A stretch of 37,744 bases of DNA, taken from the NCBI GenBank assembly GCA_902793285.1, contig CADBCV010000037.1, positions 1 to 37,744 of the forward strand. Direction: 5' to 3'. The notes below the pieces were generated by a model. It saw only the letters and a list, made by a program, of their open reading frames with translations. It was not told where the DNA came from and did no database searches. This document shows, piece after piece, positions 16,484 to 28,567 of this stretch. Numbering within the stretch: the stretch's first letter is position 1; every line of letters begins with the position of its first letter. This stretch comes from Oscillospiraceae bacterium (GTDB lineage: Bacteria; Bacillota; Clostridia; Oscillospirales; Oscillospiraceae). The translations under genes were made by a program, and so were the position numbers.

Positions 16484-17704
16484 ATGAATAAAAATGAGAT
16501 AAAGAAAATCGTTCTTGCATATTCCGGCGGGCTCGACACCTCGGTCATCATCCCCTGGCTCAAGGAGAACTACAACGATCCCGAGATCATCGCCGTGGCC
16601 GGAAACGTCGGCCAGGTGGGGGAGCTGGACGGTCTGGAGGAGAAGGCCATCAAGACCGGCGCGAGCAAGTTCTACGCCCTCGATCTCGCGGACGAGATGG
16701 TCAACGACGTCATCATCCCCTGCGTACAGGCCGGCGCGAAATATGAGGATTACCTCCTCGGCACGGCCTTCGCCCGCCCCATCATCGCCAAGGGTTTGGT
16801 GCAGATCGCCCTCCAGGAGGGGGCCGACGCCATCGCCCACGGCTGCACCGGCAAGGGAAACGACCAGGTCCGCTTTGAGCTTGCCATCAAGCACTTCGCC
16901 CCGGGCATGAAGGTCATCGCCCCCTGGCGCGAGTGGAACATCAAATCCCGCGAGGAGGAGATCGACTATGCCGAGGCGCACAAGGTCCCGCTCAAGATCA
17001 GCCGCGAGACCAACTACTCCAAGGACAAAAACCTCTGGCACCTGAGCCACGAGGGCCTGGATCTGGAGGACCCCTGGAACGAGCCGCAGTATGAAAAGCC
17101 CGGCTTCCTTGAAATGGGCGTGAGCCCCCTGGAGGCGCCCGACACGCCGGAGTACATCACCATCGACTTTGAAAAAGGCGTGCCCACCGCGCTCAACGGC
17201 GAGAAGATGAGCGCGACGGACATGATCTGGAAGCTCAACGACATCGGCGGCAGGCACGGCATCGGCTTACTCGACATCGTGGAGAACAGGCTCGTCGGCA
17301 TGAAGTGCCGCGGCGTGTACGAGACCCCGGGCGGCACGATCCTGTATGCCGCGCACGCGGCGCTTGAGACCCTGTGCCTTGACAAGATGACGGCCCACAA
17401 AAAGCAGGAGCTGAGCGTCTGCTTTGCGGAGCTCCTCTACAACGGCCAGTGGTTCTCCCCCCTGCGGGAGGCGCTCTCCGCCTTTGTGACGGCGACGCAG
17501 AAGAACGTCACCGGCACGGTGAAGCTCAAGCTCTACAAGGGCAACATCATCAAGGCCGGCCTCAAGAGCCCCTGTTCCCTCTATTCCGAGAACATCGCCA
17601 CCTTCGGCGAGAGCGATTACGACCAGGCCCAGGCCGCGGGCTTCATCAATCTCTGGGGCCTGCCCACCACGGTGCAGGCGCTGATGGAGCAGGGGAAACT
17701 GTGA
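16484..17704 (+). CDS. argG: argininosuccinate synthase
   Basis: The 406-residue protein has the N-type ATP pyrophosphatase P-loop AYSGGLDTS (residues 12-20), the citrulline/aspartate-binding [13 protein letters not shown] (about 119-131), APWREW, and the C-terminal YETPGGTIL. It joins citrulline and aspartate using ATP to give argininosuccinate, AMP and pyrophosphate. ATG 16484 has TAGGAGGCAAATGAA upstream. It is the first gene of the arginine cluster and has its own strong promoter about 45 bases before the start. The 355 bases to argH are filled by repeats, so argH may be read through or have its own promoter. Length is standard. Confidence 0.97.
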
Positions 17705-18059: not shown

Positions 18060-19436
<1,377 letters not shown>

Positions 19437-19449
19437 AAGGAGCACGACA

Positions 19450-20217
19450 ATGAAAAAGACATTCGCATTTCTGCTTGCGCTGTGCATGATTTTTGCACTC
19501 GCCGTCCCCGCCTATGCCGACGGGAAGACCACCCTCACCATGGCGACGAGCCCCGACTTTCCTCCCTTTGAGGAGCTGCAGGCCGACGGCAGCGTCGTCG
19601 GCATCGAGGTGGACCTGCTGAACCTGATCTGCGAGAAGCTGGGTCTCGAGCTCGTGATTGAGCAGATGGACTTCGACTCCGTGCTCCCCGGCGTGCAGGC
19701 CGGCAAGTACGATGTGGGCGTGTCCGGCATCTCCGTCACCGAGAAGCGGCAGAAAAACGTCCTCTTCACCGAGCCCTACTGCCTCGCGGCCCAGGCCATC
19801 GTTGTGAAGACCGGCAGCGAAATCACCGGCAAGGCCGACCTTGACAAGAAGAAGATCGCCGTCCAGACCGGCACCACCGCCGAGAGCTTCTGCATGGAGA
19901 ACAACTACAAGGTCTCCTCCTTCCAGGCCAATTCCGACGCGGAGATGGCCCTCATCGTCGGCAAGGTGGACGCCTGGGTCATCGACGATCTGACCGCGGC
20001 CGAGATGGTCAAGGCCTACAACAAGGATCACCCCGACGCCCTCACCATCCTCTCGGAGGCCATGACGACCGAGCCCTACGCCTTCGCCTTTGCCTTCGGC
20101 AGCGAGGAGCTCGTGGAGAAGATCAACGCCGCGCAGGCGGAGCTTCTTGCCGACGGCACCATCGCCGCCCTCTTTGAGAAGTTCGACGCGCCCTACACCG
20201 CGCCGAGCGCCGCGTAA
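19450..20217 (+). CDS. polar amino-acid ABC transporter, substrate-binding protein
   Basis: The 255-residue protein has an N-terminal signal peptide (residues 1-24, cleavage likely after AYA) and a periplasmic-binding-protein type II (SBP_bac_3) fold: TMATSPDFPPFEEL, GIEVDLLNLICEKLGLEL, DVGVSGISVTEKRQKNVLFTEPY and the C-terminal AFGSEELVEKINAAQAEL. There is no lipobox Cys at the cleavage site, unusual for a Gram-positive binding protein, which is normally a lipoprotein. ATG 19450 follows AAAGGAGCACGACA. It is placed inside the arginine cluster, so arginine, ornithine or citrulline is a reasonable ligand, but glutamine/glutamate-type ligands are not excluded. Confidence 0.9.
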   Translation: MKKTFAFLLALCMIFALAVPAYADGKTTLTMATSPDFPPFEELQADGSVVGIEVDLLNLICEKLGLELVIEQMDFDSVLPGVQAGKYDVGVSGISVTEKRQKNVLFTEPYCLAAQAIVVKTGSEITGKADLDKKKIAVQTGTTAESFCMENNYKVSSFQANSDAEMALIVGKVDAWVIDDLTAAEMVKAYNKDHPDALTILSEAMTTEPYAFAFAFGSEELVEKINAAQAELLADGTIAALFEKFDAPYTAPSAA

Positions 20218-20400
20218 AAAACGGCTCCCCCTCTGGGGGAGCTGGCACGGCGCGTCCCACGCAAGCGCCGTGACGGAAGGGGTCATATGCCGACATTCAG
20301 ACCCCTTCCACCGCTGAAGCGGTCCCCCTCCCCCAGACGCCGCAAGCGGCTACGGGAGGCGAGTAAACACCGTACACCCGGGGCGCGCCCCGGGTTGCGG
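20218..20400. repeat. palindromic repeat between binding protein and permease genes
   Basis: GGCTCCCCCTCTGGGGGAGC (20222-20241) then GGCACGGCGC paired with GCGCCGTGACGG, GGGGTCAT, CACCGCTGAAGCGG and CCCCCTCCCCC. It shares its parts with 28079-28150 and 21825-21930. It could act as an internal processing or attenuation site lowering downstream expression, as REP-like elements do between importer genes. Confidence 0.7.
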
Positions 20401-20421
20401 CGCGTATAAAGGAGAATGCCC

Positions 20422-21108
20422 ATGAGCGCATGGCTTGCGAAATTACACGAAACATTCATCGAGACCGGGTATTACCGGATGCTCCTGCAGGGGCTCGGCA
20501 ACACCCTCATCATGACGCTGGGGGCGCTGTGCATCGGCGTTGCGATCGGCACGCTCATCGCGGTGGTCAAATACTTTGCCGAGGATGTCCCGGCCCTCCG
20601 GCCCCTGGACATCTTCTGCGACCTGTATGTGACGGTGATCCGCGGGGTGCCGGTGGTGGTGCTGCTGATGATCTTTTTCTACGTCATCATGACCTCCGCC
20701 GAGGGGATCACGGTGGGCATCATCGCCTTCGGCATCAACTCCGGCGCGTACATGGCGGAGCTCATCCGCAGCGGCATCAACGCCGTGGACAAGGGCCAGA
20801 TGGAGGCCGGGCGCAGTCTCGGCATGAGCAAGGTGCAGGCCATGCGCAAGGTGGTCTTCCCCCAGGCGGTGCGCTACATCCTGCCCGCCATCGGCAACGA
20901 GATGATCGCCCTTTTGAAGGAGACCTCCGTCGCAGGCTATGTGGCGGTGGTGGATCTCACCCGCGCGGGAAACCTTGTGCGAAACAATACCTATGACGCG
21001 TTTAACCCCCTGATGGCCGTGGCGCTGACCTATCTGCTGCTTGTGATTCTGCTGTCGGGGTCGCTGAAAAAGCTCGAAAGGAGGCTCGCCGGGCGTGATA
21101 AGCGTTAA
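20422..21108 (+). CDS. polar amino-acid ABC transporter, permease
   Basis: I take ATG 20422, since AAAGGAG at 20408-20414 is too close to the ATG at 20416. The 228-residue protein has about five membrane helices starting with [20 protein letters not shown] (residues 18-37), and the EAA loop [20 protein letters not shown] (about 133-152) that contacts the ATPase. The family is the HisM/GlnP type (His/Glu/Gln/Arg/opine transporters, 3-TMR form). It overlaps the ATPase gene by 14 bases. A homodimer with the ATPase dimer and the upstream binding protein would form the importer. Confidence 0.93.
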
Positions 21109-21817
21109 GAATCTCAGAAAGGTCTTCGGGGAAAACGAGGCCCTCAAGGGCGTGAGCGTGGAGATCAACAAGGGGGATGTCATGTGCATCATCGGCCCCT
21201 CCGGCTCCGGCAAGTCCACCTTCCTGCGCTGCCTGAACCTCCTGGAGCGGCCCGACGGCGGGCAGGTCATCTTTGACGGGGACGATCTCATGGACCGGCG
21301 CGTCAATCTCAACCAGCACCGGCAGAAGATGGGCATGGTGTTCCAGCAGTTCAATCTCTTCCCCCACATGACGGTGCTGGAAAATCTCACCTGCGCGCCC
21401 ATGATGCTCAAAAAGGTCAGCCGCGAGGACGCCGAGAAGACCGCCATGGACTATCTCCAGCGGGTGGGGCTTGCCGACCGGGCGGACGCGCGCCCGAACC
21501 AGCTCTCCGGCGGGCAGAAGCAGCGCATCGCCATTGTGCGGGCCCTCTGCATGGAGCCGGAGGTCATGCTCTTTGACGAGCCCACCTCCGCCCTCGACCC
21601 CGAGATGGTTGGCGAGGTGCTGGACGTGATGAAAAAGCTCGCCGAGCGGGGCATGACCATGGTTGTCGTCACGCACGAGATGGGCTTTGCCCGCGAGGTG
21701 GGAAACCGCGTCCTCTTCATGGACAACGGCCTCATCGTCGAGGAGGGCACGCCCGAAGAGATCTTCGAGCACCCCAAGAGCGAGAGGCTGCGGAGCTTTC
21801 TGTCAAAAGTATTGTAA
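21095..21817 (+). CDS. polar amino-acid ABC transporter, ATP-binding protein
   Basis: The start is GTG 21095, inside the permease 3' end and preceded by AAAGGAGG. The 240-residue protein has Walker [10 protein letters not shown] (about residues 33-41), the Q-loop [21 protein letters not shown] signature LSGGQKQR (about 136-143), Walker [15 protein letters not shown] and the H-loop [10 protein letters not shown]. It is a typical GlnQ/HisP-type subunit with no extra regulatory domain. It powers the importer whose other subunits lie directly upstream. Confidence 0.95.
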
Positions 21818-21824
21818 AGAGAGC

Positions 21825-21930
21825 CTCCCTCTCTGAGGGAGGGGGACCGCGAAGCGGTGGAAGGAGTACTCCCTCAGTCACAGCGCGGCCGAACACGCGC
21901 TGCGACAGCTCCCTCAGGGAGGGAGCCTAT
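21825..21930. repeat. palindromic repeat before argF
   Basis: GCCTCCCTCTCTGAGGGAGG, then CCGCGAAGCGG, ACTCCCTCAGTCACAGCGCG paired with CGCGCTGCGACAG, then CTCCCTCAGGGAGGGAG and GCCTATAAGGAAGGA. The end runs directly into the argF ribosome binding site, in the same way as the repeat before argH (GCCTATAAGGAAAGGA). Confidence 0.8.
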
Positions 21931-21946
21931 AAGGAAGGATAATGAT

Positions 21947-22933
21947 ATGATGGATTTACACGGACGCGATTTTCTGACCCTGCTGGACTTTACGCCGGAG
22001 GAGATCGGAGGGCTTCTGGATCTTGCCGAGGAGCTCAAGGCGAAGAAGAAGGCGGGTATCCCGCATAAGATACACGAGGGGAAGAACATCGCCCTCATCT
22101 TTGAAAAGACCAGCACCCGCACCCGCTGCTCCTTTGAGGTGGCGGGCCGCGATCTCGGCATGGGGGTGACGTATCTGGACCCCGCGGGCTCGCAGATCGG
22201 GAAGAAGGAGAGCATCGCGGACACGGCGCGGGTCCTCTCGCGCATGTTCGACGGGATCGAGTACCGCGGCTATGGCCAGGAGATCGTGGAGGAGCTGGCA
22301 AAATACGCCTCCGTCCCGGTCTGGAACGGGCTTACAAACGAGTTTCACCCGACCCAGATCCTCGCGGACTTTCTCACCGTGCGGGAGCATTTCGGGAAGC
22401 TGCGCGGCATCAAGCTCGTCTATCTCGGCAACGCGCGCTACAACATGGGCGACTCTCTCATGGTGGGCTGCGCGAAGATGGGGATGCACTTTGTCGCCTG
22501 CGCGCCGGAGGGCTACTTCCCCGACCCCGCCCTCGTGGAGAAGTGCCAAAAGATCGCCTCCGAGACCGGCGCGGCGCTGGAATTTGAGCCTGACCCCATG
22601 AAGGCCGTGCGGGGCGCGGATGTCCTCTACACCGACGTGTGGGTCTCCATGGGCGAGCCGATGGAGGTCTGGGCCGAGCGCATCGCGGCCCTCGCCCCCT
22701 ACCAGGTCAATCAAGGGCTCATGGACGCGGCGGGGCCGCAGGCCGTGTTTCTTCACTGTCTGCCCGCCTTCCACGATCTCAAGACCGGGATCGGCAGGGA
22801 GATGGGCGAGAAATTCGGGAGACAAGAGATGGAAGTGACGGACGAGGTTTTCGAGGGGCCCCGGTCCCTGGTCTTTGACGAGGCCGAAAACCGGATGCAT
22901 ACGATCAAGGCGGTCATGGCCGCGACACTGTGA
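21947..22933 (+). CDS. argF: ornithine carbamoyltransferase
   Basis: I start at ATG 21947 (a second ATG follows at once); AAGGAAGGA lies 7 bases upstream. The in-frame ATG at 21857 would begin in the repeat and is unlikely. The 328-residue protein has the carbamoyl-phosphate motif STRTRCSFE (about residues 53-61), the [10 protein letters not shown] segment (about 131-140) and HCLPAFHD (about 268-275) which holds the ornithine-side Cys. It makes citrulline from ornithine and carbamoyl phosphate. No arcA or arcC is near, so the anabolic role is favoured. carA follows after 7 bases. Confidence 0.95.
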
Positions 22934-22940
22934 GGCTCAT

Positions 22941-24011
22941 ATGAAGAAGGCTTATCTTGTATTATCCGACGGGCGCTCCTTTGAGGGCGTCCGCATCGGC
23001 GCGGAAGGGGCCGGTCTCGGCGAGCTGGTGTTCACCACCGGCATGACCGGCTATCTCGAGACGCTGACAGACCCGAGCTACGCCGGGCAGATCATTTTGC
23101 ACACCTTCCCTCTCATCGGAAACTACGGCGTCATCCCGGAGGACTTTGAGGGGGCCTGTCTCGCCCGCGGCTACGTGGTGCGGGAGCTCTGCGACACCCC
23201 CTCGAACTTCCGGAGCGAGTACGCCCTCGACAGGTTTTTGAAAGAGCAGGGCGTCCCCGGCATCTGCGGGGTGGACACCCGCGCCCTCACCCGCATCCTC
23301 CGCGAGGAGGGCGTCATGAACGCCGTGATCTGCGACGAGATCCCCGCGGATCTCAGCGCGGTAAAGGGCTATCAAGTGCGGGGCGTCGTGGCCGAGGCGA
23401 GCGGCAAAGAGATCCAGACCTTCCCCGCCGCGGGGGAGGAGCGCTTTCACGTCGCGCTGATGGACTACGGCGCGAAGCACCATATTGTGGAAAATCTCCA
23501 GGAGCGCGGCTGCCGCGTGACCGTCCTGCCCCACGACACCGCGGCGGAGACGGTCCTCGCCCTGCATCCGGACGGGCTCATGCTCTCGAACGGGCCCGGC
23601 GACCCGAAGGAGAACGTGTTTGAGATCCGGCAGCTTCAAAAGCTCATCGGAAAGCTCCCGGTCTTCGGCATCTGTCTCGGCCACCAGCTCGCGGCCCTCG
23701 CTCTCGGCGGGGAGACCGTGAAGCTCAAGTACGGGCACCGGGGCGCAAACCAGCCCGTGCGCGACCTCAAAAGCGGGCGCTGCTTCATCACAAGCCAGAA
23801 CCACGGCTACGCCGTTTTGAGCGAGAGCGTGAAGGGTCTCGGCGAGCTGCGCTTTGAAAACGCGAACGACCTGAGCTGCGAGGGGCTCGATTACCCCGAA
23901 AAGCGCTGCTTCACGGTGCAGTTTCACCCGGAGGCCAGCGCCGGGCCCCACGACACCGGCTTTCTCTTTGACCGCTTTGCAGCCATGATGGGAGGTGAGG
24001 ACCATGCCTAA
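22941..24011 (+). CDS. carA: carbamoyl-phosphate synthase small (glutaminase) subunit
   Basis: ATG 22941 gives 356 residues; the in-frame start at 22875 lies in argF. The N-terminal CPSase small-chain domain (about 1-150) includes GELVFTTGMTGYLETLTDPSY. The C-terminal class I glutamine amidotransferase has SNGPGDP, the nucleophile loop FGICLGHQL (about 235-243) and the His-Glu pair in QFHPEASAGPHD. It splits glutamine and passes ammonia to CarB. It starts 7 bases after argF and overlaps carB by 8 bases, so the three are translated together. Confidence 0.96.
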   Translation: MKKAYLVLSDGRSFEGVRIGAEGAGLGELVFTTGMTGYLETLTDPSYAGQIILHTFPLIGNYGVIPEDFEGACLARGYVVRELCDTPSNFRSEYALDRFLKEQGVPGICGVDTRALTRILREEGVMNAVICDEIPADLSAVKGYQVRGVVAEASGKEIQTFPAAGEERFHVALMDYGAKHHIVENLQERGCRVTVLPHDTAAETVLALHPDGLMLSNGPGDPKENVFEIRQLQKLIGKLPVFGICLGHQLAALALGGETVKLKYGHRGANQPVRDLKSGRCFITSQNHGYAVLSESVKGLGELRFENANDLSCEGLDYPEKRCFTVQFHPEASAGPHDTGFLFDRFAAMMGGEDHA

Positions 24012-27000
24012 AAATCCGAATATTCAGAAGGTGCTGGTCATCGGCTCCGGCCCCATCGTGATCGGCCAGGCCGCGGAATTTGACTACGCCGGGGCCCAGG
24101 CGTGCCGCGTGCTGCGGCAGGAGGGCATCCGCACGGTGCTCGTAAACTCCAACCCCGCCACCATCATGACGGACAAGCACCTCGCGGACGCGATCTACCT
24201 CGAACCCCTCACGGCGGAGACCCTGCGCCGCATCATCGCCCTGGAGAGACCCGACGGGCTTCTCGCGGGGCTCGGCGGGCAGACGGGCCTCACCCTCGCC
24301 ATGCAGCTCACAAAGGACGGGACGCTCGAGAAATACGGCGTGAAGCTCCTCGGCTCCGGCATCGACGCCATCGAGCGGGCCGAGGACCGCGAGCGCTTCC
24401 GCGAGACTCTCGCCGAGATGGGGCAGCCCGTCATCCCCTCCGCCACCTGTGAGGATGTGGAGACGGCGCTGAAAATCGCAAGGGACATCGGCTACCCCGT
24501 CATTGTGCGCCCCGCCTACACCCTCGGCGGCAGCGGCGGCGGCATCGCCCGGGACGCGGAGGAGCTCGCCGCGATCGCCCGGCAGGGTCTCGACCTCTCC
24601 CCCATCACGCAGGTGCTGGTGGAAAAATGCGTCTCCGGCTGGAAGGAAATCGAATTTGAGACCATGCGGGACGCCGCGGGCAACGTGATCGCGGTCTGCT
24701 CCATGGAAAACGTTGACCCCGTCGGCATCCACACGGGCGACTCCATCGTCGTGGCCCCGGCGCTGACGCTCGCGGACAGGGAATACCAGATGCTGCGCTC
24801 GGCGGCTTTGAACATTGTGGGCGCCATCGGCATCGAGGGCGGGTGCAACGTGCAGTTTGCCCTGGACCCCGAGAGCTTTGACTATGCCGTCATCGAGGTG
24901 AATCCCCGGGTATCCCGCTCCTCGGCCCTCGCCTCGAAGGCGACGGGCTACCCGATTGCGAAGATCTCCACCCGCATCGCCCTCGGCTACACGCTCGATG
25001 AGATCAAAAACGACATCACCGGCAAGACCTGCGCCTGCTTTGAGCCGACCGTGGACTACGTGGTGGTGAAGTTTCCCAAGTGGCCCTTTGAGAAGTTCGC
25101 CGGGGCGAGCCGCAGGCTCGGCACCCAGATGAAGGCGACCGGCGAGGTCATGGCCATCGCGCCGGGCTTTGAAATGGCCCTCATGAAGGCCGTGCGCGGC
25201 GCGGAGCTCGGGCTTGACACCTTAAACGCCCCGCCCCTCTCGGACGCGCCGCTTTCAGAACGGCTCGCCGCGCAGGACGATCGGCGCATCTTCACGGTCT
25301 TTGAGGCTTTGAAGGCCGGCATGAGCGTGGACGAGATTTTTGACATCACGAAGATCGACCGCTGGTTTTTGAATAAGCTCCTCGGCCTTGTGAACTTCGA
25401 GGCCGCGCTTGCCGGCGGGCTCACGGAGGAAAACTACCGGAAGGCAAAGCGCCTCGGCTACCCGGACGAGGCGATCCTGCGCATCTCCGGGGCGGAGCGC
25501 GTGCCCGGCATGGAGATGCACTACAAGATGGTGGACACCTGCGGCGCGGAGTTTGACGCCGAGACCCCCTACTTTTACTCCTCCTTTGATGCCGAGTGCG
25601 AAAGCCGCCTCTTCCCCCGCTCGGGAAAGCCCGTCGTGATGGTCCTCGGCTCCGGCCCCATCCGCATCGGCCAGGGCATCGAGTTTGACTACTCCTCCGT
25701 CCACTGTGTCTGGACGCTCCGGGAGATGGGCTACGACGTCGTCATCGTGAACAACAACCCCGAGACCGTCTCCACCGACTACGACACGGCGGACAGGCTG
25801 TACTTTGAGCCCCTCTGCAAAGAGGACGTGTGGAACATCGTGCAGCTTGAGAAACCGGTGGGCGTGGTGGTGGCCTTCGGCGGACAGACGGCCATCAAGC
25901 TCACGGACTTTCTCAGCAAAAAGGGCGTGCAGATCCTCGGCACCTCGGCCGAGAGCATCGACACCGCCGAGGACAGGGCGAAGTTTGACGCCCTGCTCGA
26001 GCGCTTTTCGATCCGCCGCCCGAAGGGGCGCGGCGTCCTGACGCTCACGGAAGCGCTGAACGCTGCCGAGGAGCTGGGCTACCCCGTCCTCCTGCGCCCG
26101 AGCTACGTGATCGGCGGGCAGAACATGTGCATCTCCCGCGACGCTCTGAGCACCGAGCGATACATGAAGGGCATCCTCGCCCAGGGGATCGAAAACCCCG
26201 TCCTGGTGGACAAGTACATGCCCGGCACGGAGCTCGAGGTGGACGTCATCTCCGACGGGGAGGACGTGCTCATCCCCGGCATCATGGAGCATATCGAGCG
26301 CGCGGGCGTCCACAGCGGCGACTCCATCGCGGTCTACCCGCCCTGGAACCTGAGCGACAAGTTTTTGCAGCGCATCACCGACGTGTCCGCGAGGCTGGCC
26401 CTCGCCCTCGGGACAAAGGGGCTTGTGAACATCCAGTATCTCATCTGGCAGGACGAGCTCTATGTCATCGAGGTGAACCCCCGCGCCTCCCGCACGGTGC
26501 CCTATATCAGCAAGGTCACGAACGTGCCGATGGTCGATCTCGCCTCCCGCATCATGCTGGGGGCGAAGCTCCGCGACCTCGGCTGGGGCACGGGCCTCTG
26601 CCGCACGCCGCCCTATTTTGCGGTGAAGGTGCCGGTGTTCTCCTTTGAAAAGCTCGCGGACGCAAACTCCATCCTCGGGCCCGAGATGAAGTCCACGGGC
26701 GAGGTGCTCGGCATCGGCAGGACGCTCGCGGAGGCGCTTTTCAAGGGGCTCACCGCGGCGGGCTTCCGCCTGCCGAACGGGCTTGAGGGCGCGCGCGGCG
26801 TGCTGCTCAGCGTGGAGAACGAGGACAGCCAGGAGATCCTGACCCTCGCACGGCGCTTTTATAAGCTGGGGCTGCGGCTCTACGCCACGCGGGACACCGC
26901 GGCGGCCATCGCATCCCTCGGCATCCCGGTCACATCCGTCCCGAACGCCGGGGAGAGCGGGGAGATCACCCGCCTCATGGACAGCGGCGCACTCCGCTAC

Positions 27001-28032
27001 ATCGTCTACACCGGCGCTGTGAAGGACGGCACCATGGGCGACTACACCGCCCTGCACCGCCACGCCATGCAGCGGGGCGTGCCGTGCCTCACCTCGCTCG
27101 ACACAGCGAACGCCCTCGCCGAGATCATCGAGAGCTGCTTCCACGAGAGCAGCACCGAGCTGGTGGACATCAACGCCATGCGCTCTGCCCACCAGACCAT
27201 CCGCTTCACCAAGATGCAGGACTGCGGCAACGACTATATCTTCATCGAAAACTTCGACGGCGCCATTACCTGCCCGGAGTCCCTGTGCGTGAGTCTCTGC
27301 CGGGCGCACACCGGCGTCGGCAGCGACGGCATCGTGCTCATGGAAAAGTCCGACATCGCCGATGTGAAAATGCGCTCCTTCAACCGCGACGGGAGCGAGG
27401 GCAAAATGGCCGGCAACAACCTCCGCTGCGTGGCAAAATACGTCTACGACCGGGGCATCGTCCCGAAAACGGAAATGACCGTCGAGACGGGCAGCGGCGT
27501 CAAGTCCCTGCGCCTTTTCCTGCGCGACGGCGTCGTGAGCTCCGTGGAGGCGGACATGGGCAAAGTCTCCCTCAAATCCGCCGAGATCCCCGTCGTAAGC
27601 GAGCGCGAGAAGCTCGTCAATTGCCCGATCCAAATCGGCGGGCGGGAGTATTTCGCCACCTGCGTCAACGTGGGAAACCCCCACTGCGTCATTTTCTGCG
27701 ACGCCATCGACGGTCTCGAGCTTGACGAGATCGGCCCGCAGTTTGAGTACGCCCCCATCTTCCCCGAGCGCGTGAACACCGAGTTTGTGCGCGTGGTGAA
27801 CCGCCACACCCTGCGTATGCGCGTCTGGGAGCGCGGCAGCGGCGAGACCCTGGCCTGCGGCACGGGCGCCTGCGCCGCGGTGGTGGCCGCCTGTGAAAAC
27901 GGTCTCTGCGACAAGGGCAGCGACGTGAAGGTCAGTCTCCTCGGCGGGGAGCTCACGGTCAACTATACGGACGCGCGGGTCCTCCTCACCGGCGGGGCAA
28001 ACATCGTCTTCGAGGGCAGCTTCCAATATTGA
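24004..28032 (+). CDS. carB: carbamoyl-phosphate synthase large subunit fused to diaminopimelate epimerase (CarB-DapF)
   Basis: I start at ATG 24004, which has GGAGGTGAGG directly upstream; GTG 23995 is in frame but lies in that site. One uninterrupted frame of 1342 residues follows. Residues 1-1050 are a complete CarB: carboxyphosphate half with VIGSGPIVIGQAAEFDYAG, oligomerisation region, carbamoyl-phosphate half with VLGSGPIRIGQGIEFDYSS (about 546-565), and the MGS-like regulatory domain from residue 932 to about 1045. A short linker leads at about residue 1066 into a full-length DapF (about 277 residues): FTKMQDCGNDYIFIE, the NRDGSEGKMAGNN motif, VNVGNPHCVIF, ERGSGETLACGTGACAA. DapF interconverts LL- and meso-diaminopimelate for lysine and peptidoglycan. 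The first catalytic Cys position (consensus CGNG) is Ala1136; the second Cys (1285) is present. An internal ATG at 27178 could make free DapF, but its ribosome binding site is weak. Confidence 0.95.
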   Translation: MPKNPNIQKVLVIGSGPIVIGQAAEFDYAGAQACRVLRQEGIRTVLVNSNPATIMTDKHLADAIYLEPLTAETLRRIIALERPDGLLAGLGGQTGLTLAMQLTKDGTLEKYGVKLLGSGIDAIERAEDRERFRETLAEMGQPVIPSATCEDVETALKIARDIGYPVIVRPAYTLGGSGGGIARDAEELAAIARQGLDLSPITQVLVEKCVSGWKEIEFETMRDAAGNVIAVCSMENVDPVGIHTGDSIVVAPALTLADREYQMLRSAALNIVGAIGIEGGCNVQFALDPESFDYAVIEVNPRVSRSSALASKATGYPIAKISTRIALGYTLDEIKNDITGKTCACFEPTVDYVVVKFPKWPFEKFAGASRRLGTQMKATGEVMAIAPGFEMALMKAVRGAELGLDTLNAPPLSDAPLSERLAAQDDRRIFTVFEALKAGMSVDEIFDITKIDRWFLNKLLGLVNFEAALAGGLTEENYRKAKRLGYPDEAILRISGAERVPGMEMHYKMVDTCGAEFDAETPYFYSSFDAECESRLFPRSGKPVVMVLGSGPIRIGQGIEFDYSSVHCVWTLREMGYDVVIVNNNPETVSTDYDTADRLYFEPLCKEDVWNIVQLEKPVGVVVAFGGQTAIKLTDFLSKKGVQILGTSAESIDTAEDRAKFDALLERFSIRRPKGRGVLTLTEALNAAEELGYPVLLRPSYVIGGQNMCISRDALSTERYMKGILAQGIENPVLVDKYMPGTELEVDVISDGEDVLIPGIMEHIERAGVHSGDSIAVYPPWNLSDKFLQRITDVSARLALALGTKGLVNIQYLIWQDELYVIEVNPRASRTVPYISKVTNVPMVDLASRIMLGAKLRDLGWGTGLCRTPPYFAVKVPVFSFEKLADANSILGPEMKSTGEVLGIGRTLAEALFKGLTAAGFRLPNGLEGARGVLLSVENEDSQEILTLARRFYKLGLRLYATRDTAAAIASLGIPVTSVPNAGESGEITRLMDSGALRYIVYTGAVKDGTMGDYTALHRHAMQRGVPCLTSLDTANALAEIIESCFHESSTELVDINAMRSAHQTIRFTKMQDCGNDYIFIENFDGAITCPESLCVSLCRAHTGVGSDGIVLMEKSDIADVKMRSFNRDGSEGKMAGNNLRCVAKYVYDRGIVPKTEMTVETGSGVKSLRLFLRDGVVSSVEADMGKVSLKSAEIPVVSEREKLVNCPIQIGGREYFATCVNVGNPHCVIFCDAIDGLELDEIGPQFEYAPIFPERVNTEFVRVVNRHTLRMRVWERGSGETLACGTGACAAVVAACENGLCDKGSDVKVSLLGGELTVNYTDARVLLTGGANIVFEGSFQY

Positions 28033-28567
28033 GGATAGCGGCCCCTGCGGCAAGGGGGCCAAGGGCCGCGCGCTCTTGGCTCCCCCTCTGGGGGAGCTGG
28101 CACAGCGCGTGTACGGCCGCGCTGTGACTGAGAGGGCCATCGAGGGCCCTACCGCGTTCCCCCTCGCTGTCATCCTGAGCGCCAGCGAAGGATCTCGTGG
28201 TTGGTTGCAGTTGGGACGGGATTCTTCGTCGCAAAGCTCCTCAGAATGACACAAATCAGCGGCAAAGCGCCCGACCACACCACGCTCTCCAAGCTCCCTT
28301 TCGAAAGGGCGCGACGCGTTAAGCAAACGTGCCGGGGGCACGTTTGTAGCCAAAGCGGGGAGCAAGCTGTGCTTGCGACCTGGGCCGAAGGCTGTCATGG
28401 CAGAGGGCGAAGCCCATCCATAAACGTGCTTAGTCCTTTAGGGGCGAGGCCATGACTGAGGGATCGATCCCTCCACCGCCTTCGGCGGTCCCCCTCCCTT
28501 TTTCCAAAGGGAGGTTAAAAACATTTGCGCATCGTGGGACGCCTGTGCCTTTTTTGGGCATGGAAAA
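28033..28567. repeat. repeat-filled gap after carB-dapF
   Basis: No gene is supported. It contains GGCTCCCCCTCTGGGGGAGC with flanking GGCACAGCGCG/CGCGCTGTGAC pairs (28079-28135), a TGTCATCCTGAGC element (28168-28251), a CTCCACCGCCTTCGGCGG plus CCCTCCCTTTTTCCAAAGGGAGG element (28467-28515) and a CATTTGCGCATCGTGGGACG unit (28521-28542). The stretch 28290-28450 (AAACGTGCCGGGGGCACGTTTG hairpin and AAGCGGGGAGCAAGCTGTGC) has no match elsewhere in the window. Confidence 0.75.
28168..28251. repeat. TGTCATCCTGAGC repeat, diverged copy
   Basis: It has the same ends as 4908-4982 (TGTCATCCTGAGCG and CTCAGAATGACA) and the central GGGATTCTTCGTCGC, with a different inner loop. Confidence 0.85.

Follow-up and report, generated by a model that had tools for sequence, protein, structure and literature searches.

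A carB::dapF fusion of gut and rumen Clostridia and the repeated loss of a catalytic cysteine from its DapF half

The carB::dapF gene and its operon

The window, a 37,744-nucleotide stretch of an Oscillospiraceae genome (GCA_902793285.1, contig CADBCV010000037.1), encodes an in-frame fusion of CarB, the large subunit of carbamoyl-phosphate synthase (CPSase), with DapF, the diaminopimelate (DAP) epimerase. The fusion gene, carB::dapF, occupies 24004..28032 on the forward strand, as do all features described here; no stop interrupts it, and its translation is 1342 residues long. The CarB part (residues 3-1041, 24010..27126) matches TIGR01369 with 1383 bits (cut-off 1027), and profile matches recover both ATP-grasp halves, the oligomerization domain and the MGS-like allosteric domain (residues 944-1030, 26833..27093, Pfam match). 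The DapF part follows at residues 1066-1340 (27199..28023) and is complete in length, with a TIGR00652 score of 271 bits against a cut-off of 114.65. Between the two lies the junction motif VDINAM (residues 1054-1059, 27163..27180), which comparison with unfused CarB ends identifies as the old CarB C-terminus. The initial annotation, made from the letters alone, had described such a fusion and flagged 27100-27250 as the place where a stop or frameshift might have been missed. The frame runs through this junction region uninterrupted, the domain matches support both halves, and the same joined frame is found in other genomes. As a true in-frame fusion, it implies that the CarB and DapF parts are made one to one, as had been proposed.

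Structural modeling of the C-terminal 413 residues (930-1342) with AlphaFold gave a mean predicted local distance difference test (pLDDT) value of 90 and a predicted template modeling score (pTM) of 0.67. The linker is of low confidence, and the relative orientation of the MGS and DapF domains is unsure. The closest solved structures are DapF proteins, 2otn and 9mro (template modeling score 0.91 on the target for 9mro).

The ATG at 24004 is preceded by GGGAGGTGAGG and gives an 8-base overlap with the carA stop; the longest listed version of the frame begins with a GTG 9 bases further upstream. A separate DapF made from an internal start, which the initial annotation had named as an alternative to a fused product, is unsupported in the window and was rejected, no Shine-Dalgarno-like site having been found near the junction. 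Strong internal-start candidates (ATG, at least 5 matching bases) occur in 8 of 46 related fusion genes whose DapF part keeps both catalytic cysteines, in 0 of 78 that have lost one or both, and in 29 of 2480 background windows; a Met-Arg-Ser-Glu motif, through its codons, may account for part of these eight.

Genomic neighborhood analysis places the fusion gene last in the order argG-argH-three ABC transporter genes-argF-carA-carB::dapF. A profile scan of the neighbors identified argG (argininosuccinate synthase, 16484..17704), argH (argininosuccinate lyase, 18060..19436), three genes of a polar amino-acid ABC transporter between argH and argF (19450..21817), argF (ornithine carbamoyltransferase, 21947..22933, TIGR00658, 426 bits) and carA (CPSase glutaminase subunit, 22941..24011, TIGR01368, 424 bits), in agreement with the earlier assignment of the fusion to an operon with argF and carA.

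Distribution across genomes

A TIGR00652 search of 99 genomes, comprising the window's own, 60 of its genus and 38 others of its order, found DapF within frames of 856-1505 residues in 45 of them, the window's genome included. These long frames are present in 25 of the 61 own-genus genomes and in 20 of the other 38. When the search was widened to the order (297 genomes) and to the class (293 genomes), fused frames appeared in further families among the matches listed, and the loci fetched contain 124 distinct fused DapF domains; these loci are a non-random sample in which the window's own genus is over-represented. Among the best 80 of 588 named loci, the titles of fused carriers are mostly those of Oscillospiraceae, Ruminococcus or 'Clostridia' metagenome-assembled genomes (MAGs), with one Treponema; the same 80 include Ruminococcus sp. 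FC2018, a carrier whose record title bears no MAG mark. Since so many independent genomes carry the same joined frame, an origin by assembly or sequencing error, raised in the initial annotation, was rejected. carB::dapF is an old fusion in gut and rumen Clostridia.

For the comparisons below, identical domains were removed, leaving 233 DapF rows. Four fused rows truncated at a contig edge (L058, L062, L114, L132) were scored as fused by their upstream frame. Two stand-alone DapF proteins found only in two pieces, that of G078 (L072, also L259) and that of L097, were omitted; both have Cys at the two catalytic places. For the trees, rows were thinned at 80% identity, to 186 of the 233 DapF rows and 39 of 114 CarB rows.

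Loss of the catalytic cysteine

DapF catalysis proceeds through two cysteines, 73 and 217, according to reports on the E. coli enzyme (PMC4227774) and on PDB 1BWZ (PMC3581254). In the window, alignment places Ala1136 (codon 27409..27411), within the motif MAGNN at residues 1135-1139, at the position of Cys73, and Cys1285 (codon 27856..27858) at that of Cys217. The initial annotation had called the domain a full-length DapF; this holds for its length but not for a working enzyme, the absence of the catalytic Cys73 having been overlooked. The substitution is one of many. Across the alignment of 233 distinct domains, both cysteines are present in 109 of 109 stand-alone DapF domains, whereas the 124 fused domains divide into 46 with both and 78 that have lost one or both. 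Cys73 is absent from 77 fused domains (Ala 62, Gly 9, Ser 3, Phe 2, Thr 1); the single Thr73 row also carries Ser at 217, and one further fused row combines Cys73 with Ser217. A Cys-to-Ser change in the DapF relative PddB leaves less than 0.1% of activity (PMC8225329), and the C73A/C217A double mutant of E. coli DapF has no activity (PMC4227774). Given the known two-cysteine mechanism, the DapF half without Cys73 very probably cannot epimerize DAP.

The remainder of the pocket is conserved. Eight residues that contact the substrate in DapF (Asn11, Asn64, Asn75, Asn157, His159, Asn190, Glu208 and Arg209) are all present in the window DapF part. Among the 77 Cys73-less domains, Asn157, Asn190, Glu208 and Arg209 are each found in 77 of 77, Cys217, Asn64 and His159 in 76 each, Asn75 in 74 and Asn11 in 64. 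The median dN/dS is 0.194 over 203 cysteine-losing pairs (maximum 0.448) versus 0.129 over 37 two-cysteine fused pairs, values that indicate continued purifying selection on the domain after cysteine loss.

A single large cysteine-less clade, which includes the window, accounts for 49 rows of the thinned DapF tree (support 100). Within it, in 36 of the 39 columns that are invariant in active domains, a single residue still accounts for 90% or more of the rows; the 36 include position 73, where this residue is Ala. A different residue is now conserved in each of columns 1083, 1090, 1114, 1319 and 1328, Ser1093 has become fixed, and constraint is relaxed at Asn11, at the Met preceding Cys73 and at Thr1162.

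Second DapF copies and the DAP pathway

The presence of another DapF or of meso-DAP dehydrogenase (Ddh) was counted in the 41 genomes outside the window's own genus for which the fused sequence was fetched; these counts all refer to the matches listed. The initial annotation had asked whether fusion genomes also have a stand-alone dapF, and the answer divides by cysteine state: a second DapF occurs in 11 of 19 cysteine-losing genomes versus 2 of 22 two-cysteine genomes (Fisher p 0.0018), so that the two-cysteine fusion is the sole DapF in 20 of 22. Any backup, whether a second DapF or Ddh, is found in 16 of 19 cysteine-losing versus 11 of 22 two-cysteine genomes (p 0.046). Of the 11 second copies in cysteine-losing genomes, 8 were read, and all 8 carry both cysteines. 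In the class-search set, which lies outside the Fisher test, a second match accompanies the fusion in 4 of 6 cysteine-losing versus 0 of 7 two-cysteine genomes, again among the matches listed. The fused two-cysteine DapF is apparently needed by the cell. Where it is the sole DapF (20 of 22), the link between arginine nitrogen and peptidoglycan suggested earlier is real at least in stoichiometry.

Ddh backup alone was also considered as the driver of cysteine loss; it is unsupported, since among the matches listed Ddh accompanies 11 of 22 two-cysteine carriers as against 8 of 19 that have lost a cysteine.

The window's genome itself carries a second DapF with both cysteines on another contig (L005:5217-6071, C18). 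The window therefore departs from a bifunctional CarB/DapF enzyme on two counts, the missing Cys73 and this second copy. The stand-alone DapF proteins of its genus (L005:5217-6071, L076-L096, L098) form a distant clade, in which Asn157 is present in 3 of 23 rows versus 84 of 86 elsewhere, and they may represent another racemase. Neither DapF of the genus is a safe DAP epimerase.

Six other-order genomes were asked, and DapB and LysA score over the cut-off in 6 of 6 and TIGR03542 in 4 of 6 (not G065, G088). In the own genus, Ddh was matched in 0 of 61 genomes (window included), TIGR03542 reached its cut-off in 0 of 19, and DapB (TIGR00036) reached its cut-off in 0 of 14, with two weak matches, in a search that did not extend to divergent DapB or other routes. 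Yet 11 of the 19 own-genus genomes asked have a LysA match over the cut-off. The genus may lack a known route to DAP. No dapA or dapB was recognized in four of the six LysA neighborhoods fetched, which were read by eye without a family scan.

CarB effector sites and CPSase type

The MGS domain of the window lacks both nucleotide-effector lysines. Lys954 of the E. coli MGS domain is one of the two; its equivalent in the window is Ser. Lys993 is needed for UMP (uridine monophosphate) binding and Thr1042 for ornithine in E. coli CarB (PMC6245113). The window has Asn at the equivalent of Lys993, and the equivalents of Thr974, Thr977 and Thr1042 are kept, the last just behind the Pfam MGS match. 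The Thr1042 equivalent is present in 70 of 70 rows of a CarB alignment (A2). Both effector lysines are retained in 46 of 46 two-cysteine rows and in 13 of the 14 rows, selected by hand on the tree, that lost a cysteine elsewhere than in the big clade, versus 2 of 64 big-clade rows. The two big-clade rows that keep both lysines (L250, L255) have Ala at 73, which suggests that cysteine loss preceded effector-lysine loss in this clade.

The fused CarB is presumably of the arginine type, in the manner of B. subtilis CarA/CarB. Many carriers hold a second, unfused CarB among the matches listed. Five unfused-CarB loci were read by eye. Three adjoin pyrK- and pyrD-like genes (carriers G098 and G043, non-carrier G008), and the other two (carrier G067, non-carrier G012) have carA and no pyrK- or pyrD-like neighbors within the stretch examined. 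Several carriers (e.g. G061, G063, G075) show no second large CarB match among the matches listed, and none was found in the window's own genome, which is 79.5% complete. Because a separate CarB adjoins pyrimidine genes in some carriers, the fused enzyme is, by its genomic context, probably an arginine-type CPSase in at least some of them.

Evolutionary history

On the DapF tree (186 rows, cysteine columns excluded), the fused or stand-alone state requires 3 changes, a number as low as which was reached in 0 of 500 shuffles, and three stand-alone rows are nested in the fused group. Among the fused rows, cysteine state changes at least 8 times. The CarB tree (39 rows) contains one fused clade with support 99, in which the unfused L201 and L259 are nested, L259 within the cysteine-less part. 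The simplest reading of the two trees is a single origin of the fusion with rare later splits.

The C-termini point to how the joining may have happened. The nearest outside unfused CarB (L192) ends ELIDLNTI-stop and the secondarily shortened L259 ends LVNINA-stop; fused proteins carry VDIN-x-M shortly ahead of the DapF start. Because the CarB C-terminus matches the junction, the fusion probably arose by loss of the carB stop, and the extra domain was probably lost later at the same place.

Other arrangements of these genes were also seen. At L276:190-2331 a carA-like gene is followed by a stand-alone dapF with both cysteines and then by a CTP-synthase-like gene (named by eye); since dapF sits directly behind the carA-like gene, this looks like a former carA-carB::dapF from which carB was lost while dapF was kept. 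In G211 (L256:2400-7512), among the matches listed, another dapF lies directly behind carB::dapF, and each of the two keeps both cysteines; this tandem is possibly a transitional state. Also among the matches listed, an unfused stand-alone dapF lies about 3 kb or less from carB in two genomes, downstream in G095 and upstream in G082 (L257, L258).

Proposed role of the DapF domain

We propose that carB and a downstream dapF were joined once, long ago, in Clostridia through loss of the carB stop codon. The first fused product would have been bifunctional, a CPSase and a working DAP epimerase, because the cysteines are intact and the fused copy is the sole DapF found in most two-cysteine carriers. 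A catalytic cysteine then disappeared from the epimerase half on several occasions, in most cases where meso-DAP could come from another DapF or from meso-DAP dehydrogenase; the association of cysteine loss with backup is the observed pattern, with exceptions. After the loss the domain was mostly retained, and in the window's lineage the DAP-binding residues and purifying selection persist while the nucleotide-effector lysines of CarB have decayed. The non-catalytic domain may bind DAP or a similar diamino acid and adjust the arginine-type CPSase to which it is attached.

At the level of sequence, the fusion, the cysteine loss, the retention of the domain and the decay of the effector site can be taken as established; the ligand and its effect on the CPSase are what we infer from them. 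Taken whole, the reading that the DapF half repeatedly became a non-catalytic, ligand-sensing domain of an arginine-type CPSase is one that we hold at slightly less than even confidence. A regulatory or structural role for DapF had been raised in the initial annotation, and it gains support because Cys73 was lost while the pocket was conserved. A further step, limited to the big clade including the window, is more tentative and rather doubtful: DapF would have taken over effector control from the nucleotide site of CarB, so that the supply of carbamoyl phosphate for the arginine pathway would be set by one of the diamino acids DAP, lysine and ornithine and no longer by UMP.

Several observations weigh against this proposal. 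All p-values treat related genomes as independent, and Ddh alone is, by the counts given above, no commoner in cysteine losers. Two cysteine-losing genomes, G087 and G065, have neither a second DapF nor a Ddh match; G088 lacks a second DapF and has a weak DAPDH_C match (50 bits, cut-off 30), counted as none. Within the window's genus, 4 of 10 fused genomes that are at least 90% complete (G018, G029, G043, G048) are without another DapF match. Because Ddh, DapB and TIGR03542 are unmatched there and some genomes have no other DapF, the ligand of the own-genus fused domain may not be DAP, or unrecognized enzymes may make DAP. Nearly all Cys73-less domains keep Cys217, a residue that ligand binding alone would not require. 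The association between Cys73 loss and lysine loss comes essentially from one clade and therefore represents few independent events, and L250 and L255 retain both lysines though they have Ala at 73. A renewed loss of the DapF domain is seen within the cysteine-less clade (L259, G078), and the domain is therefore not indispensable. Finally, the DapF-tree group that takes in every fused row reaches a support of 90 and is not starred.

The strongest alternative is a structural one, in which the DapF fold, often a dimer, holds the CPSase oligomer together or stabilizes the C-terminus and ligand binding is irrelevant. The intact predicted fold, with its mean pLDDT of 90 and DapF proteins as nearest structures, and the purifying selection that follows Cys73 loss would both be expected of such a scaffold. 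However, a scaffold need not retain all ligand-contacting residues, as seen for Glu208, Arg209, Asn157 and Asn190 in every one of the 77 domains, and the model, with its pTM of 0.67 and low-confidence linker, does not point to a stable interface between the DapF and MGS domains. We regard a scaffold as unlikely.

Decay in progress is less probable still. Under this explanation the domain is a functionless relic that persists since removal of a C-terminal domain is rarely neutral. The somewhat higher dN/dS of cysteine losers, the relaxed Asn11, Met before Cys73 and Thr1162, and the renewed loss of the domain in L259 fit such a course. Against it, the big clade keeps 36 of 39 columns and has newly fixed residues, and all 124 fused domains lie in unbroken frames, though the count could only see unbroken frames.

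A change of chemistry, with Cys217 as the sole acid/base of a new enzyme, appears improbable. 3-Hydroxyproline dehydratase and PhzF share the fold and work with one or no catalytic cysteine, and Cys217 persists in 76 of the 77 Cys73-less domains. Yet position 73 is variously Ala, Gly, Ser, Phe or Thr, with no single new catalytic residue, and the sole newly conserved acid, Glu1114, has no known position within the site. Continued DAP epimerization with another residue substituting for Cys73 would account for the few genomes that show neither another DapF nor Ddh (G087, G065 and the own-genus G018, G029, G043, G048), but it is the most improbable of all given the near-complete inactivity of the PddB and E. 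coli cysteine mutants, and MAG gaps or unknown enzymes explain these exceptions equally well.

Relation to known systems

The domain of the window shares its fold, length and tested pocket residues with stand-alone DapF (TIGR00652, PF01678), with 41% identity to both 2otn and 9mro in the structural match, and differs in being fused to CarB and in the replacement of Cys73 by Ala. Similarly, its CarB half has all the domains of ordinary CarB (TIGR01369), with argF and carA alongside; in contrast to the ordinary protein, the fusion has about 280 extra C-terminal residues, and the window's clade has lost the nucleotide-site lysines.

Two precedents bear on a changed role for the fold. E. coli DapF with both cysteines replaced by Ala still binds and activates RppH (PMC4227774). 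In this system (PDB 6d13), as proposed for the fusion, DapF acts on another enzyme without needing its cysteines, but it is a separate protein with a different partner, and natural DapF keeps its cysteines. PddB and O-ureidoserine racemase (7vdy), two DapF-like racemases, likewise have a DapF fold with a changed role, the latter known here as a sequence and structure match; unlike the window domain, PddB works with a two-cysteine pair (PMC8225329).

No report of a CarB-DapF fusion was found in the literature searched, which took in neither subscription papers nor protein databases, and the domain architecture may have been noticed earlier. Gene fusion and the loss of catalysis are each familiar events; their combination in a graded natural series appears to be new. 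The series runs from a separate gene, to a fused and apparently needed one, to a fused and cysteine-less one mostly with backup, to renewed loss of the domain. Its presence in living relatives opens direct tests of how regulatory domains originate. It also makes profile-based annotation unsafe in this case, as many Clostridia would be credited with a DapF that is very probably unable to epimerize DAP, which affects predictions of lysine and cell-wall synthesis and the use of DapF as a drug target. If the proposed sensing role is true, a direct connection between an arginine CPSase and any diamino acid but ornithine would, to our knowledge, be new.

Other features of the window

An intergenic element, CTCCCTCAGTCACAGCGCGGCC, occurs at 21822-21928 and 28115-28136 and brackets argF-carA-carB::dapF. 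The two copies stand in opposite orientation with at most 2 mismatches, the first inside inverted arms, and the repeat arose in 0 of 100 shuffles. Further upstream, 5099-7090 matches NF011110 (signalling protein/L9 fusion model) with 306 bits, below the cut-off of 707; its product is presumably GdpP-like.

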